Positions 34,089 to 41,595 of a stretch of 64,000 nt of DNA are shown piece after piece. A program made the translations under genes and the position numbers. The DNA is from Pseudomonadota bacterium (GTDB lineage: Bacteria; Desulfobacterota; Binatia; Binatales; Binataceae): NCBI GenBank assembly GCA_021324885.1, contig JAJPIF010000014.1, forward strand, positions 62,001 through 126,000, in the 5' to 3' direction. The number at the start of each line of letters is the position of its first letter. Positions within the stretch are counted from its first letter, which is position 1. The notes beneath the pieces were generated by a model. It was not told the origin of the DNA and did no database searches. It saw only the letters and a list, made by a program, of their open reading frames with translations.

Positions 34089-36959
34089 CTACGATTGGTT
34101 AAGCAGTTGCGCCAGATGGATTGGGCGGCGGCCAGGGCAGAAATGCGCGATTTGCGAACGGCAGGAAAAGCCGTCGCTGACCACGATTGTATCGGGTCGG
34201 GCAGCGCGGACCGCGGGAAGCAGCACGCGCTCGCCGATTGCGCGGGAGACTTCGTAGTGTTCCGCGTTATAGCCGAACGGACCGGCCATCCCGCAGCATC
34301 CTGAGTCCGGCGTCTGCAGTTCCAATCCCGAAATTCGCTTCAGGATCGCGATCTCGTTATCCAGTCCGGCGATCGCCTTCTGATGGCAATGGCCATGGAG
34401 CAGCACGGCGCGCCCGGACAGAGCGGGCAGGACGATTGCGTCCGCTTCGCGCGCCAGGAATTCGTCCAGCATCAGGCTTGATTGGGCGATTTTCGCGGGC
34501 CGCCGATCCTTCGGAAACAGCGCTGGCAGCTCGTCGCGAAACGTCAGCACGCAACTGGGTTCGAGTCCGACGATGCTCCGGCCAGCATCGACCAACGGAG
34601 TCAGCGTGTCCATTATCCGGGTCAGCCAGCGCCTTGCCAGATCGAGCATCCCCTGGTCGAAAAGAGGGCGGCCGCAACAGAGATCCACGGGGGGAAGCTC
34701 GATATCAAAGCCGCAGCGCTCCAGCAGCTCTACCGCGGCCCGTCCGACGTCGGGGTCGAAGAAGTTGGTGAAGGTGTCGGGGAACAGGACCACTTTGCGC
34801 CCGCGCACGGCGCTCGCTGATCGACGGTAAAACCAGGTACGAAAGGGCTGGGCGGCAAACGCCGGCAGCTTGCGGTCGGGATGAATCCCGAAAAGCCTGC
34901 GCATGATGGATTGTGCCATATTCAGCCGCATCAGGCGGTTGACCGCAGCGGGCGCGAATTGCGCGAGCGCGCCAGCCTGATGGATGCGGCCGAAGAGCTG
35001 AGCCGAAAGCGGCCGGCGATGGCGCTGGTAGTAATGCGACAGGAACTCCGCTTTGTAAGTTGCCATGTCCACACCAGCCGGACATTCACGCTTGCATCCT
35101 TTGCAGGCCAGGCACAGGTCCAGCGCGTCGTAGAGCGCGTCATCGGCCGGCTTGCCGTGAAGGAAATTCCCCGTGAGCGCCTCGAACAGCAGATGGGCGC
35201 GCCCGCGCGTGGAATGCGCTTCCTCGCGCGTCGCCATGTATGAAGGGCACATGGTGCCGCCGTCGGTGCGGCGGCATTTGCCAATCCCGACGCATCGCGA
35301 GGCTGCTCCCGCAAAACCATGGTCGGCGCTGAAATCGAAATTGGTTTGCCGGCTTTTCAGTCGGCCGTTTCGACTATGCTGCGGGGAAGCGGCCAGACGC
35401 AGATGAGCGTCGAGAGCGTCGGGGGCGACGATCACGCCCGGATTCATGCGATTGTCGGGATCGAAGATGCGTTTGAATTCCGCGAAGGCCTCGATCAATT
35501 CAGGCGGGAAGATCTTCGGCAGCAGTTCGGAGCGCGCCCGTCCGTCGCCATGCTCGCCGGACAGCGAACCGCCGAACTCGGCGACCAGATCAGCGATGTC
35601 CTCCACCGAATGGCGAAACTGGCGCACGCCATCTGGCGTGGAAAAATCGAAATTGATCCGGCAATGGACGCATCCGTCGCCAAAATGGCCATAGAAGGTG
35701 GCGGCCTCAAGCCGATGTGCGGCCAGCAAGCTGTCGAAACGGCGCAGGAATCCGCCCAGTTTTTCCGGCGCAACGGCGGTGTCTTCGGCGCCCGGCCAGG
35801 TGCGCGGACGGCCGGCGATAACGGCGCTGGCGCCCAGTCCCGACTCGCGCAATTCCCACACGGCGGCCTGTTCGCGCTCATCGCTGAACAATTTGCAGGT
35901 CGGGCGCACCGGGAATCGCTCGGCCGCGCGGGCCAGCTCCGCCGCGCGCCCGCGCGCCTGCTCCGCGGTGTCGGCGCCGAATTCGACCATCAGGTAGCCG
36001 CCGCCCGGTGGAAGCCTCCGCTCGACTTCCGATCCGCCCACCTTCATCCGGCACAATTCGACCAGGCGTTGGTCGAATCCCTCCAGCGCCTGCGGACGAT
36101 GCTCGAGGATCAATGGCACCTGGTCCGCCGCTTCGAACATCCCCTTGAATCCCATTACCAGCAGCGCGCGATAGCGCGGACGCGGCACCAACCGCACCGT
36201 CGCGGATTGAGTGATGGCCAGCGTGCCTTCGGACCCCACCAGGGCGCGGGCGACGTTGAAGCCGTTTTCGGGCAGGAGCTGGTCGAGGTTATAGCCGGAA
36301 ACGCGGCGCGGAATACGGGGAAATCCGGCGCGAATCGCCTCGCCGTAGCGCTCTGGCAAAGCCTTCAAGCGCGAGAAGATCAACTGCGATCGTTCTTCCG
36401 CAGCGCCGGCCTCCGTGCCGGCGTCCAACCGCAGTCGGGTGCCATCATAAAGCAGCGCGTCGAGCCCGATCAGATTGTCAACCGTCTTGCCCCATTGGAC
36501 CGAATGGGCGCCGCAGGAATTGTTGCCGATCATACCGCCCAGGCAGCATCGATTTTTGGTCGTCGGATCGGGCGCGAACTGAAGGTCGAATTTGGCGGCG
36601 GCCTGGTTGAGCTGCGTCAACACGACGCCGGGCTCGACGACCGCTGTCCGCGCTTCGGGATCGATTTTCACAATCGAGTTGAGGTACTTGGAAAAGTCCA
36701 GGACCAGCGCGGCATTGCAGGTCTGACCGCCCAGCGAGGTGCCGCCGCCACGCGCTAAAATCGGTATCTGGTTGTCGCGCGCCAACGCGAGTGCGGCGCC
36801 GACGTCGCCCTCGTGCCGGGGTATGACGACGCCGAGCGGGATCAGGCGATAGTTGGAGGCGTCGGTGGAGTACAGCGCGCGGCTGCCCTCATCAAAGCGG
36901 ACCTCGCCCTCAACGCGGCGCCGCAGCTCATCCTGAAAGACTGGGAGAGAGACTTTCAC
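34089..36959 (-). CDS. FAD-binding oxidase fused to Fe-S/CCG heterodisulfide-like domains (GlcD/GlcF-like fusion; D-2-hydroxyacid dehydrogenase type)
   Basis: FAD-binding: PILARGGGTSLGGQTCNAALVLDFSKYLN; Fe-S: CVGIGKCRR...MCPSYMATREEAHSTRGRAHLL and CLACKGCKRECPAGVDMATYKAEFL; CCG motifs VDLCCGRPLFDQG and DSGCCGMAGPFGY. Confidence 0.92.
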   Translation of the reverse strand: MKVSLPVFQDELRRRVEGEVRFDEGSRALYSTDASNYRLIPLGVVIPRHEGDVGAALALARDNQIPILARGGGTSLGGQTCNAALVLDFSKYLNSIVKIDPEARTAVVEPGVVLTQLNQAAAKFDLQFAPDPTTKNRCCLGGMIGNNSCGAHSVQWGKTVDNLIGLDALLYDGTRLRLDAGTEAGAAEERSQLIFSRLKALPERYGEAIRAGFPRIPRRVSGYNLDQLLPENGFNVARALVGSEGTLAITQSATVRLVPRPRYRALLVMGFKGMFEAADQVPLILEHRPQALEGFDQRLVELCRMKVGGSEVERRLPPGGGYLMVEFGADTAEQARGRAAELARAAERFPVRPTCKLFSDEREQAAVWELRESGLGASAVIAGRPRTWPGAEDTAVAPEKLGGFLRRFDSLLAAHRLEAATFYGHFGDGCVHCRINFDFSTPDGVRQFRHSVEDIADLVAEFGGSLSGEHGDGRARSELLPKIFPPELIEAFAEFKRIFDPDNRMNPGVIVAPDALDAHLRLAASPQHSRNGRLKSRQTNFDFSADHGFAGAASRCVGIGKCRRTDGGTMCPSYMATREEAHSTRGRAHLLFEALTGNFLHGKPADDALYDALDLCLACKGCKRECPAGVDMATYKAEFLSHYYQRHRRPLSAQLFGRIHQAGALAQFAPAAVNRLMRLNMAQSIMRRLFGIHPDRKLPAFAAQPFRTWFYRRSASAVRGRKVVLFPDTFTNFFDPDVGRAAVELLERCGFDIELPPVDLCCGRPLFDQGMLDLARRWLTRIMDTLTPLVDAGRSIVGLEPSCVLTFRDELPALFPKDRRPAKIAQSSLMLDEFLAREADAIVLPALSGRAVLLHGHCHQKAIAGLDNEIAILKRISGLELQTPDSGCCGMAGPFGYNAEHYEVSRAIGERVLLPAVRAARPDTIVVSDGFSCRSQIAHFCPGRRPIHLAQLLNQS

Positions 36960-37010: not shown

Positions 37011-38051
37011 TCACGCCGGGTTGATCGCGATCTTTCCCATCACCTCGTTGCGTTCCATTATTTCCTGCGCCCTGCCAAGTTCCTTGAGCGGCAGCACCTT
37101 GCCGACCACCGGTTTGATCTGGCCGGACTCCACGAAGCGCAGGGCGTCGATCAGCTCCGCTTTGTTGCCCAGATGGGAGCCCAGGTAGTTCTGCTGCTTG
37201 TTCCACAGCAGGCGGATGTCCATGTGGGCGTCGAAGCCGGAGGTGGCGCCGCAGACGACGATAGTGCCGCCCCATTTCAGGCACTGCATCGAGATTGGCC
37301 AGGTGTCGGCGCCGGTATGCTCGAAGACGATGTCGGCGCGCTTGCCGCCGGTGAACTTGCGGACTTCCTTGAAAACATCCTGTTTGGTGCGATTGATCAC
37401 GAACTCGGCGCCCAGTTCGCTGCACATTTTCAGTTTGTCGTCGCCCGAAGCGACGGCGATGGGACGGGCGTTGAACAGCTTCGCCACCTGAATCGCCATG
37501 ATGCCCAGGCCACCGGCGGCGCCCCAGATCAGGACAAAGTCGCCGGCGCGGATTTTGGCCCGCGTCACCAGCATCCGCCACACCGTGACCAGCACCAGCG
37601 GCAGCGACGCGGCTTCTTCATGGCTAAGTTTGGCCGGCTTGGGCAGCACGTTGACGGCGGGAAGCTTGCAGAATTCGGCGTGACCGCCGTCGAGCGGACC
37701 GGTCTGGAAGCCCCAGATCTTGAAGTCTTTACAGAAGAATTCGTTGCCGGCGGTACACTGTTCGCATTCGCGGCACGACAGTCCGCAGTGGGAAATCACC
37801 TCGTCGCCCACCTTGACGTTGTGCACGCCGGGTCCGATTTCGGCGACCACACCGGAAACGTCGGACCCCGAAATGTGGGGTAGAATGATTTCCATGCCGG
37901 GCAGACCCCGACGCGCCCAGATATCGTTGTAGTTGCACGCAGAGGCCTTAACCTGGATCAGGACCTCGTTGTGACCGACCTTGGGACGTGGAGTTTCCTT
38001 GTATTGAAGAACCTCCGGTCCGCCATTTGCTTCGAAAATGACCGCCTTCAT
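37011..38051 (-). CDS. MDR-superfamily enoyl-(CoA) reductase; resembles crotonyl-CoA carboxylase/reductase core
   Basis: CNYNDIWARRG (no catalytic-Zn Cys), structural-Zn CGLSCRECEQCTAGNEFFC, DFKIWGFQTG, GDFVLIWGAAGGLGIMAIQVAKLF, DIVFEHTGADT, NYLGSHLGNKAEL. Confidence 0.82.
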   Translation of the reverse strand: MKAVIFEANGGPEVLQYKETPRPKVGHNEVLIQVKASACNYNDIWARRGLPGMEIILPHISGSDVSGVVAEIGPGVHNVKVGDEVISHCGLSCRECEQCTAGNEFFCKDFKIWGFQTGPLDGGHAEFCKLPAVNVLPKPAKLSHEEAASLPLVLVTVWRMLVTRAKIRAGDFVLIWGAAGGLGIMAIQVAKLFNARPIAVASGDDKLKMCSELGAEFVINRTKQDVFKEVRKFTGGKRADIVFEHTGADTWPISMQCLKWGGTIVVCGATSGFDAHMDIRLLWNKQQNYLGSHLGNKAELIDALRFVESGQIKPVVGKVLPLKELGRAQEIMERNEVMGKIAINPA

Positions 38052-38390: not shown

Positions 38391-38870
38391 ATGGCTGTCA
38401 GAAAAATCGAGCGGGGGCATTACTTCGAGGATTTCGAAGTCGGCCGCGTCTTCAAACATCATTGGGGCCGCACCATCAATGAAGGGGATAATTCCCTCTT
38501 CACCAGCGTGACGATGAATTTCAACCCGGTCTACTTCAACCGCGAGTACGCCCGCAGCCTGGGTTTCAACGATATCATCGTCAATCACATGCTGGTCCTG
38601 AACGTGGTTTTTGGGCTGTCAGTGGAAGACCTCAGCGAGCGCGCCATCGCGCACCTGGGATATGAGAAGGTGAAATTTCTGGGCACGGTCTATCCGGGCG
38701 ACACTCTGACTTCGCAATCGGAGGTGCTTTCCAAGCGCGACGCTTCGCGGCCCGATCGCGGAGTGGTCAGGTTCCGCACCAGCGGATTCAATCAGCGGGG
38801 CGAAAAGGTGCTCGAATACGAACGTCCCGTGTTGATTCGCAAACGCAATCCCGCGCCCGCCAAGGAGTGA
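38391..38870 (+). CDS. MaoC-family hot-dog dehydratase/hydratase (copy 1)
   Basis: GHYFEDFEVGRVFKHHWGRTINEGDNSLFTSVTMNFNPVYFNREYA. TGATG overlap with next gene. Confidence 0.88.
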   Translation: MAVRKIERGHYFEDFEVGRVFKHHWGRTINEGDNSLFTSVTMNFNPVYFNREYARSLGFNDIIVNHMLVLNVVFGLSVEDLSERAIAHLGYEKVKFLGTVYPGDTLTSQSEVLSKRDASRPDRGVVRFRTSGFNQRGEKVLEYERPVLIRKRNPAPAKE

Positions 38871-40042
38871 TGCAGATGCCCGCCGTTACACCGGAACACG
38901 AGGAAATCCGCCGTTCGGTGCGCGAGTTTGTCGAGCATGAAGTGGCGCCGATCGCCAACGACCTCGACCGCCAGGAGGCCCAGATCCCCGAGCATATCAT
39001 CAGCAAGATGGCCGAACTGGGCTACTTCGGCATCATCTTCCCGCCCGAGGAGGGCGGGATGGGCCTGGACTACATCTCGATGGCGATCGTTACCGAGGAG
39101 TTGTCGCGGGGGTGGCTGTCAGTCGGATCGGTGATGACGCGCAATCTGATTACCGGCAGCCTGCTCCACAACAACGGTACTCCCGAGCAGAAGAAGAACA
39201 TCCTGCCGAAAATCGCGCGCGGCGAGGTAATGACGGCGGCGGCTTTCACGGAGCCCGACACCGGATCGGACACGGCGTCGCTCAAACTGCGCGCGGTCAG
39301 GCAGGGCGACGGCTATTTGCTCAAGGGCGCCAAGATGTGGTGCACCTTCGCCAATCGGGCCAATATCCTGACCGTGATGACGCGAACCGACCCCGACCTG
39401 TCCAAAAAGCATCGGGGGCTGTCCCTGATGTTGTTCGAGAAGACGCCCGGTGACGATTTCGCGCCGCCCCATCTGACCGGATCGCGCATCCCGACCATCG
39501 GCTATCACGGCATGAACAGCTATGCGCTGTCCTTCGACGACGCCTATGTTCCGGCGGGCAACCTGATCGGCGGCAAAGAAGGGCAGGGCTTCTACCAATT
39601 GATGACCACTTACGAAGCGGCGCGCATCCAGACTGCGGCGCGCGGCGTCGGGGTGGCGCAGGCGGCGTTGGAATGCGCAGTGAAATATGCCAAAGAGCGG
39701 ACGCAGTTCGGCGTTCCGATCGGCAACCACCAGGTGATCCGCCATAAGCTGGCGCACATGGCGGTCGAGATCGAAGCGGCGCGCCAACTCGCCTATTTTG
39801 CCGCGTCGCAAAAGGATACGGGCAAGCGCTGCGATTACGAGGCGGGACTGGCCAAGGTGTTCGCCGCCGAGATGGCGGAACGGGTCACGCGCGAGGCGAT
39901 GCAGGTACACGGCGGCTACGGCTATTCGATGGAGTTCAACGCGCAGCGCTTCTGGCGCGACGCGCGGGTGCTGTCGATCTTCGAGGGCACCAGCGAAATC
40001 CAGCTTGAAGTAATCGGCCGCCGCATCATGGAACAATCCTGA
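38867..40042 (+). CDS. Acyl-CoA dehydrogenase (candidate methylsuccinyl-CoA dehydrogenase-like by context)
   Basis: AAFTEPDTGSDTASLKLRAV; YHGMNSYALSFDDAYVPAGNLIGGKEGQGFYQLMTTYEAARIQTAARGVGVAQAAL; IFEGTSEIQLEVIGRRIME. Confidence 0.9.
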   Translation: MMQMPAVTPEHEEIRRSVREFVEHEVAPIANDLDRQEAQIPEHIISKMAELGYFGIIFPPEEGGMGLDYISMAIVTEELSRGWLSVGSVMTRNLITGSLLHNNGTPEQKKNILPKIARGEVMTAAAFTEPDTGSDTASLKLRAVRQGDGYLLKGAKMWCTFANRANILTVMTRTDPDLSKKHRGLSLMLFEKTPGDDFAPPHLTGSRIPTIGYHGMNSYALSFDDAYVPAGNLIGGKEGQGFYQLMTTYEAARIQTAARGVGVAQAALECAVKYAKERTQFGVPIGNHQVIRHKLAHMAVEIEAARQLAYFAASQKDTGKRCDYEAGLAKVFAAEMAERVTREAMQVHGGYGYSMEFNAQRFWRDARVLSIFEGTSEIQLEVIGRRIMEQS

Positions 40043-40059: not shown

Positions 40060-40545
40060 ATGAGCATCACATCAGAGGGCAGCTATTTCGAAGACTTCAC
40101 CGTGGGCGACACGCTGATCCATCAGCGCGGCCGCACTATCACCGAGACCGACAACCACATGTTCACCTCACTGGTGATGAACACCGCGGAACTCCATTTC
40201 AATCAGAATTTGGTAGAGCGCGAGCCGGAAACCTATTTCAACGGGCGGCGCGTGGTGTATGGCGGAGTCGTGCTCGCCTTCGTGGTGGGTCTGGCCTCCG
40301 AGGACACCAGCGAAAATGCGATCGCCGAACTGGAAATGGACAACGGGCGCCATACCAATCCGGTCTTCCACGGCGACACGCTTTATGCCGAATCCACGGT
40401 TTTGGAAAAACGCGATTCGCACCGCCCCGACGCCGGAATTGTCAAGTTCAAGCTGGTGGGCAAGCGGCCCGACGGCACCGTCGTGGTTGAGATCGAGCGT
40501 TCGGTGCTGATCAAGCGCAAATCATATTTTCTTAAAAAATCCTGA
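40060..40545 (+). CDS. MaoC-family hot-dog dehydratase/hydratase (copy 2)
   Basis: GSYFEDFTVGDTLIHQRGRTITETDNHMFTSLVMNTAELHFNQNLVE. Confidence 0.88.
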   Translation: MSITSEGSYFEDFTVGDTLIHQRGRTITETDNHMFTSLVMNTAELHFNQNLVEREPETYFNGRRVVYGGVVLAFVVGLASEDTSENAIAELEMDNGRHTNPVFHGDTLYAESTVLEKRDSHRPDAGIVKFKLVGKRPDGTVVVEIERSVLIKRKSYFLKKS

Positions 40546-40557
40546 GAGGCTCAGACG

Positions 40558-41595
40558 ATGTTTGTTCTCGACGGCGGCAAACGCTTTGTGATTCCACGCA
40601 CCGAGATGACCTATCCCGGCCATAACCTCAAGCTGCATCAGAACGCCGCCGATCCGGTCAAGGCGCCGGTTGATCATGTGATGGCGGATTTCGAGGACGC
40701 CTGCCCCTACGAATTCAAAGGCGAGAAAAGCCGCAAGGTGATGGTCGAGGCGCTCAACACGCTGGATTTCGGCAACAAGGTCGTCACCATCCGGCCCAAC
40801 AATATCCACTCCAGCTTCTTTAAGGGCGATATGGAGGCGGTGATGCTGGGCGCGCCCAACCGCTTCCACGGCATTATCCTGCCCAAAACGCGCGGGCCCG
40901 AGGAAATTGTCGCGGTCTCCAAACTGCTCGATGATCTCGAGAAGCGCGGCGGATGGAAATACAAAATCCAGATCGAATCGCTGATCGAGACTCCGCACGC
41001 GCTGATCAGGGCTTACGAGATCGCGAGCGCGTCGGAGCGGATGGCGGGGCTGATTTTCGGCATCGCCGATTTTGCCGCCAACCTCGGTATCCGCGAGATC
41101 GTCGAGGATCAGAACCGCAATTTCCACTATTGCAAACAGGCGGTGGTGGTGGCGGCTAAAGCGGCGGGTCTGCACGCGATCGACAACGTTTATCTGCGTC
41201 TGGTGCGCAAGGACGATCCGCCTGAGCGCGTGGCCGAAATCGAGCGCGGCCTGCGCGAAAAGAACATCGGCGCCGCCAATCTGGGGATGGACGGCACCTG
41301 GGTGATCCATCCGCAGCAGGCCGCGATCGCCAACGCCTGCTTCTCGCCCACGGCCGAGCAAATCGAGGAGGCCCGCCGCGTCGTCAAGCTCTACCATGAG
41401 AAAGGCGGCGGCTCGATGGCCGACCCGAAGACCGGCGATATGATCGACGAGGCCACGATCAAGATCGCGCTGATGGACCTCGCCAAGGGCGTCCAGATGG
41501 GCTTGGTATCGCAGGAAGAACTGGCCGACTGGTCCGCCCGCAGCCGCGAGATCACCGGCTACGACATCCTACAGTTGATGCGCCGCGTGCAGTAG
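40558..41595 (+). CDS. HpcH/HpaI-CitE superfamily CoA-ester lyase (malyl-/beta-methylmalyl-/citramalyl-CoA lyase-like)
   Basis: VDHVMADFEDACPYEFKGEKSR; VTIRPNNIHSSFFKGD; IQIESLIETPHALIRAYEIAS; GIADFAANLG; GMDGTWVIHPQQAAIANACFSP. Confidence 0.88.
   Translation: MFVLDGGKRFVIPRTEMTYPGHNLKLHQNAADPVKAPVDHVMADFEDACPYEFKGEKSRKVMVEALNTLDFGNKVVTIRPNNIHSSFFKGDMEAVMLGAPNRFHGIILPKTRGPEEIVAVSKLLDDLEKRGGWKYKIQIESLIETPHALIRAYEIASASERMAGLIFGIADFAANLGIREIVEDQNRNFHYCKQAVVVAAKAAGLHAIDNVYLRLVRKDDPPERVAEIERGLREKNIGAANLGMDGTWVIHPQQAAIANACFSPTAEQIEEARRVVKLYHEKGGGSMADPKTGDMIDEATIKIALMDLAKGVQMGLVSQEELADWSARSREITGYDILQLMRRVQ

Follow-up and report, generated by a model that had tools for sequence, protein, structure and literature searches.

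No CO2-fixing carboxylases are known to be faster than the crotonyl-CoA carboxylase/reductases (CCRs; PMC10176493). In KsCcr, the enzyme of Kitasatospora setae, the CO2 pocket consists of N81, F170, E171 and H365, each with a described role. Glu171 is one of four residues said to be key to CO2 binding, and the E171A change halves the CO2-hydrating activity (PMC10966969). Two other MDR enzymes, the propionyl-CoA synthase of Erythrobacter NAP1 and the acrylyl-CoA reductase of Nitrosopumilus maritimus, have been described as engineered or latent carboxylases (PMC10176493, PMC7918591). The ethylmalonyl-CoA pathway has been predicted for most orders of Binatota (Murphy et al. 2021, PMC8262859). We found no report in the literature of a Gln at the position of KsCcr Glu171.

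The window analysed here, a stretch of 64,000 nucleotides, comes from a soil-dwelling member of Binatota, an uncultured phylum. It contains the gene of an MDR reductase, here named RED, whose open reading frame has a single stop, at its end, and translates into 346 aa. We consider it likely that RED acts in place of CCR, carrying out the reductive carboxylation of the ethylmalonyl-CoA pathway, and that its Gln116 holds a bridging water. The translation contains ACNYND (N40-Y41-N42), IWGFQT at 112–117, VFEH at 242–245 and GSH with H293, all at the places given in the preliminary description of this DNA.

Features of the RED locus, with positions in the window
Feature	Position	Strand	Basis or remark
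FAD-linked oxidase fused to Fe-S/CCG domains (GlcD-GlcF/YdiJ-like)	34089..36959	-	downstream of RED
RED, CCR-sister MDR reductase, 346 aa	37011..38051	-	ORF translation
His293 codon (= KsCcr His365)	37173..37175	-	alignment
Phe115-Gln116 codons (= KsCcr Phe170-Glu171), Gln departs from CCR	37704..37709	-	alignment
Structural zinc lobe, four Cys (C93/C96/C99/C107)	37731..37775	-	alignment
Asn42 codon (= KsCcr Asn81)	37926..37928	-	alignment
MaoC-like hydratase half 1 (mesaconyl-CoA hydratase-like)	38391..38870	+	divergent from RED
Acyl-CoA dehydrogenase (ACAD), methylsuccinyl-CoA dehydrogenase signature	38867..40042	+	structure match, signature residues
MaoC-like hydratase half 2	40060..40545	+	
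CitE-superfamily lyase, probable beta-methylmalyl-CoA lyase	40558..41595	+	

In a phmmer alignment of RED with KsCcr (6na3_A), N42, F115, Q116 and H293 correspond to N81, F170, E171 and H365, and no gap adjoins any of the four RED residues. The 6na3_A index is offset by +2 from the published KsCcr numbering, and with this offset all four pocket residues agree. The motifs thus fall on the CO2-site positions of CCR, and the earlier proposal of a CCR-type CO2 pocket, with Phe and His kept and Glu changed to Gln, is borne out by this gap-free alignment. Our analysis also showed that N, F, Q and H are invariant in 17 out of 17 RED orthologues from Binataceae MAGs (68–95% identity), each of which therefore has the counterparts of Asn81, Phe170 and His365 and departs from CCR at Glu171. 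As only 175 of the 346 positions are invariant across these orthologues, the pocket pattern appears to be more than chance, and its presence without exception shows that Gln116 is fixed and not a product of drift. The 27 aligned CCRs carry N, F/Y, E and H at these positions, with Glu in all of them, while eight other close MDRs (2eih and haloarchaeal, Chloroflexi, proteobacterial and Paenibacillus sequences) carry L/H, E/V, H/D/M/T and T/N/G. N42, W113, W176, F243 and H293 are common to CCRs (25–27 out of 27) and missing from all eight other relatives. N42 is diagnostic; N40, the other Asn of NYN, is not, since 8/8 non-CCR relatives have it too. Since Glu171 is described as key to CO2 binding in KsCcr, its replacement counts against RED as a carboxylase.

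RED also possesses a four-Cys structural zinc lobe (C93-x2-C96-x2-C99-x7-C107), which is degenerate or lost in the aligned CCRs. The alignment revealed no catalytic-zinc Cys in RED, the place equivalent to Cys38 being taken by Asn40. It also showed that RED has neither the N-terminal extension of CCR nor the insert of about 20 residues that follows INR in the cofactor domain. The lobe, the missing extension and the missing catalytic Cys had all been read correctly from the sequence beforehand. RED scores below the curated cut-off of the CCR family TIGR01751 (305.9 vs 378.55 bits), a further point against it as a carboxylase. It is likewise below the acrylyl-CoA reductase cut-offs of NF051456 AcuI (45.3 vs 440 bits) and NF041172 (177 vs 500 bits).

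The genes around RED would fit later steps of the ethylmalonyl-CoA pathway. The best match of the ACAD among solved structures is methylsuccinyl-CoA dehydrogenase 6es9, and it is 48% identical to the PdMCD core. By the published determinants of PdMCD (PMC5798300), it keeps the equivalents of R252, A285, F287, R421 and E535, has His in place of R376, and is devoid of the N-terminal extension. The MaoC genes are two half-size PF19315/MaoC genes. The CitE lyase matches malyl/beta-methylmalyl-CoA lyases and has the Mcl catalytic residues. In several other families of Binatia, genes of its orthologues are clustered with those of the mutase and an Mcd-like protein. Elsewhere in the window genome, three mutase-family genes were found, one of which (L052) is of the MeaA/Ecm type. 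Its product has 656 aa and a B12 domain, and is 43–44% identical to Methylobacterium plasmid homologues and 42–43% identical to records annotated meaA. We infer that, among the mutases of MeaA type, this one is Ecm. In most Binataceae, an ArsA-like ATPase gene adjoins this type of mutase gene (loci L223–L236), and the ATPase may be a mutase chaperone.

No CCR above the cut-off was found in the window genome. Among 35 Binataceae genomes, RED was present in 15, CCR in 11 (including the CCR of G025, which is split across two contigs), neither in 9, and both in none; a CCR elsewhere in the RED genomes is rejected, none scoring above the cut-off. In eight CCR genomes, CCR adjoins a divergent MaoC-ACAD-MaoC-CitE operon 81–86% identical to that of the window. 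The FAD-oxidase gene lies on the other side of CCR in seven of the eight, and in the remaining one (G012) the contig ends there. In the window genus, it is RED that occupies this slot between the FAD oxidase and MaoC-ACAD-MaoC-CitE. Most of the other RED genera lack the three middle genes, and their RED gene is divergent from CitE. The best reading of these arrangements is that RED replaced CCR, or CCR replaced RED, in one gene slot. On the mutase and lyase trees, one change suffices for the RED/CCR switch, and many independent replacements are unsupported. The genomes are thus not independent, the co-occurrence counts overstate the number of independent observations, and Fisher values computed from them do not amount to independent tests. 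Our scan of contigs for RED reaches close relatives only, and RED may occur outside Binataceae.

Several other arrangements were seen at these loci. G009 has two RED copies (L106, L107), 69–73% identical to the RED of the window, and at L106 a mutase gene lies directly downstream on the same strand. The FAD-oxidase/Fe-S/CCG gene flanks RED in many RED genomes as well as CCR in Binataceae; the conservation of its position suggests that its function is connected, perhaps as an oxidase of glyoxylate/glycolate or 2-hydroxyacids. A gene for PntB, the beta subunit of NAD(P) transhydrogenase, adjoins RED in G007 (L104, 7928–9313), which is in keeping with a demand for NADPH. In G022 (L240, 4039–9952), the CitE gene follows those of a two-part mutase and of an acyl-CoA dehydrogenase, unlike its usual place beside RED.

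The L052-type mutase was found in 15/15 RED, 10/11 CCR and 1/9 of the Binataceae genomes with neither, and the 12 genera that bear it are exactly the seven RED and the five CCR genera. Isocitrate lyase was found in 0/15, 0/11 and 4/9, respectively, and the window genome has no match to it (PF00463). At E ≤ 1e-85, no Mcd orthologue was found in RED genera other than that of the window, except for one match in G014. Neither this match nor the one in G026, from the same genus, rises above the level of ordinary acyl-CoA dehydrogenases, and the G026 protein does not carry the Mcd signature. The absence of Mcd from the other RED genera is a point against RED as the carboxylase of this pathway. In four Binatia genomes (G041, L212; G053, L213; G037 and G045, L214–L216), genes of the mutase and of an Mcd-like dehydrogenase are present, and CCR and RED are both absent. 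The lower pathway can thus occur where both reductases are missing, a further point against the proposed role of RED, and these organisms may enter the pathway by some other route or put it to some other use. The Mcd-like proteins of other Binatia families have I/V at A285/F287.

From the pocket alignment and these gene sets we infer the substrate of RED, its cofactor, the carboxylation and the part played by Gln116, as follows. NADPH would give a hydride to C3 of crotonyl-CoA. The resulting enolate would attack CO2, which Asn42 would orient and Phe115 would shield, while His293 and Gln116 would hold the bridging water as the counterparts of His365 and Glu171 in KsCcr. The predicted product, (2S)-ethylmalonyl-CoA, would then pass through the mutase, the methylsuccinyl-CoA dehydrogenase, the MaoC pair and the CitE lyase, the last of which would yield glyoxylate and propionyl-CoA. 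The preliminary description had left a choice between a plain reductase, a latent carboxylase and an intermediate form. As RED is found in the CCR slot of an ethylmalonyl-CoA-pathway locus, in a genome without CCR, a working carboxylase is predicted as likelier than a latent one.

RED might instead be a non-carboxylating crotonyl-CoA reductase, with a biotin-dependent carboxylase turning butyryl-CoA into ethylmalonyl-CoA, so that the mutase would receive its substrate all the same. There is precedent for biotin enzymes that take the place of a CCR homologue and act on saturated acyl-CoAs as carboxylases (PMC5187497), each of the 17 orthologues has Gln for one of the four residues of the CO2 pocket, and the genomes with mutase and Mcd-like dehydrogenase alone point to a possible other entry. 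However, the invariant N, F and H would be unneeded by a plain reductase, and close non-CCR homologues have L/H, E/V and T/N/G in their place. The RED locus showed no gene of a biotin carboxylase, and the RED gene takes the CCR slot. We therefore regard this two-step route as unlikely.

The substrate could also be some other CoA ester, such as acrylyl-CoA or a branched or longer one, which RED as an enoyl-CoA reductase/carboxylase would feed into a non-classical route together with the lyase and the mutase. RED genera g4–g8 and g13, which have RED, lyase and mutase and no recognisable Mcd, would fit such a route, as would AibC (5k1s), an enoyl-CoA reductase that is among the next structural relatives of RED. 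Against this, putative genes of all the later steps except the mutase lie beside RED in the window genus, and CCR genomes are arranged alike, which makes another substrate improbable.

In a tree of 61 sequences built on all columns, RED and CCR split from all other sequences with an SH-aLRT of 100. The RED and CCR branch remained at 99/99 after removal of every motif column, so that convergence of the motifs is rejected as the driver of the tree. With these columns removed, the CCR clade alone had a support of 100/100; RED as one clade had weak support (69/30). RED stands outside the CCR clade, as its sister, and its joining to 2eih (p-AU 0.036) or to 2eih and the haloarchaeal rows (p-AU 0.033) was disfavoured. 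The tree left out the Nitrosopumilus acrylyl-CoA reductase and propionyl-CoA synthase. An intermediate form, as suggested earlier, fits this position as a CCR sister that has kept the zinc lobe of other MDRs. A CCR degenerating by drift is rejected, given the Gln invariant in 17 orthologues and the branching outside CCR. On a plasmid of Halostagnicola larsenii (L163, 2963–7044), genes of an acyl-CoA dehydrogenase, a methylmalonyl-CoA-mutase-family protein and an MDR reductase are consecutive; this reductase is 40% identical to RED and does not have the CO2-pocket residues.

The AlphaFold2 model of RED (pLDDT 93.5, pTM 0.92) had its best Foldseek matches in 2eih (TM 0.95) and in CCR structures, with a TM of 0.91 by query length to 6owe, a CCR with ethylmalonyl-CoA. 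Although 2eih, the best solved match to RED in both sequence and fold, is annotated as an alcohol dehydrogenase, it is highly improbable that RED is an ordinary MDR alcohol dehydrogenase or quinone reductase merely resembling CCR, and we reject this on the missing catalytic-zinc Cys, the trees, which place RED nearer to CCR than to 2eih even without the motifs, and the CCR slot with its gene linkage.

RED as a putative substitute for CCR bears on how CCRs arose from ordinary reductases and on the role of Glu171. On a wider reading, which we hold to be evenly balanced, nature would possess a second lineage of reductive carboxylases with a branch of its own: RED, a compact, zinc-lobed sister of CCR, would fix CO2 efficiently with Gln for the supposedly required Glu, replace CCR in a functioning pathway and preserve a stage of its origin from MDR reductases. 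If RED carboxylates, nature tolerates Gln in place of Glu171, neither the N-terminal extension nor the insert is required, and 2eih-type enzymes, RED and CCR form a natural series along which the acquisition of CO2 binding can be followed. Should RED act as a reductase only, it is a naturally occurring near-carboxylase, a single pocket residue away, and a good background for a Q116E gain of function. Annotation by the CCR cut-off would miss RED, and the pathway of these uncultured bacteria would be recorded as broken.

Like the CCRs (TIGR01751; KsCcr 6owe, MexCcr 4gi2), RED has the MDR fold, the pocket Asn, Phe and His, the IWGF, FEH and GSH motifs, and the same slot and pathway partners in Binataceae. 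Unlike them, to which it is 34–40% identical, it has Gln for Glu171, keeps the zinc lobe, and is without the N-terminal extension and the insert after INR. RED resembles 2eih-type MDRs (the Thermus 'alcohol dehydrogenase') and their haloarchaeal relatives in length, zinc lobe and an identity of about 37–44%. However, these have NHLD, ILGEHR or IIGEHV, and GST where RED has NYND, IWGFQT and GSH, and they fall outside the RED and CCR branch. With the NAP1 propionyl-CoA synthase and the N. maritimus acrylyl-CoA reductase, RED shares the standing of an MDR reductase viewed as a carboxylase in waiting. Those enzymes, from whose descriptions RED is set apart, carboxylate only as a side reaction until engineered, whereas RED natively has three of the four pocket residues, a conservative change at the fourth, and the gene slot of CCR.
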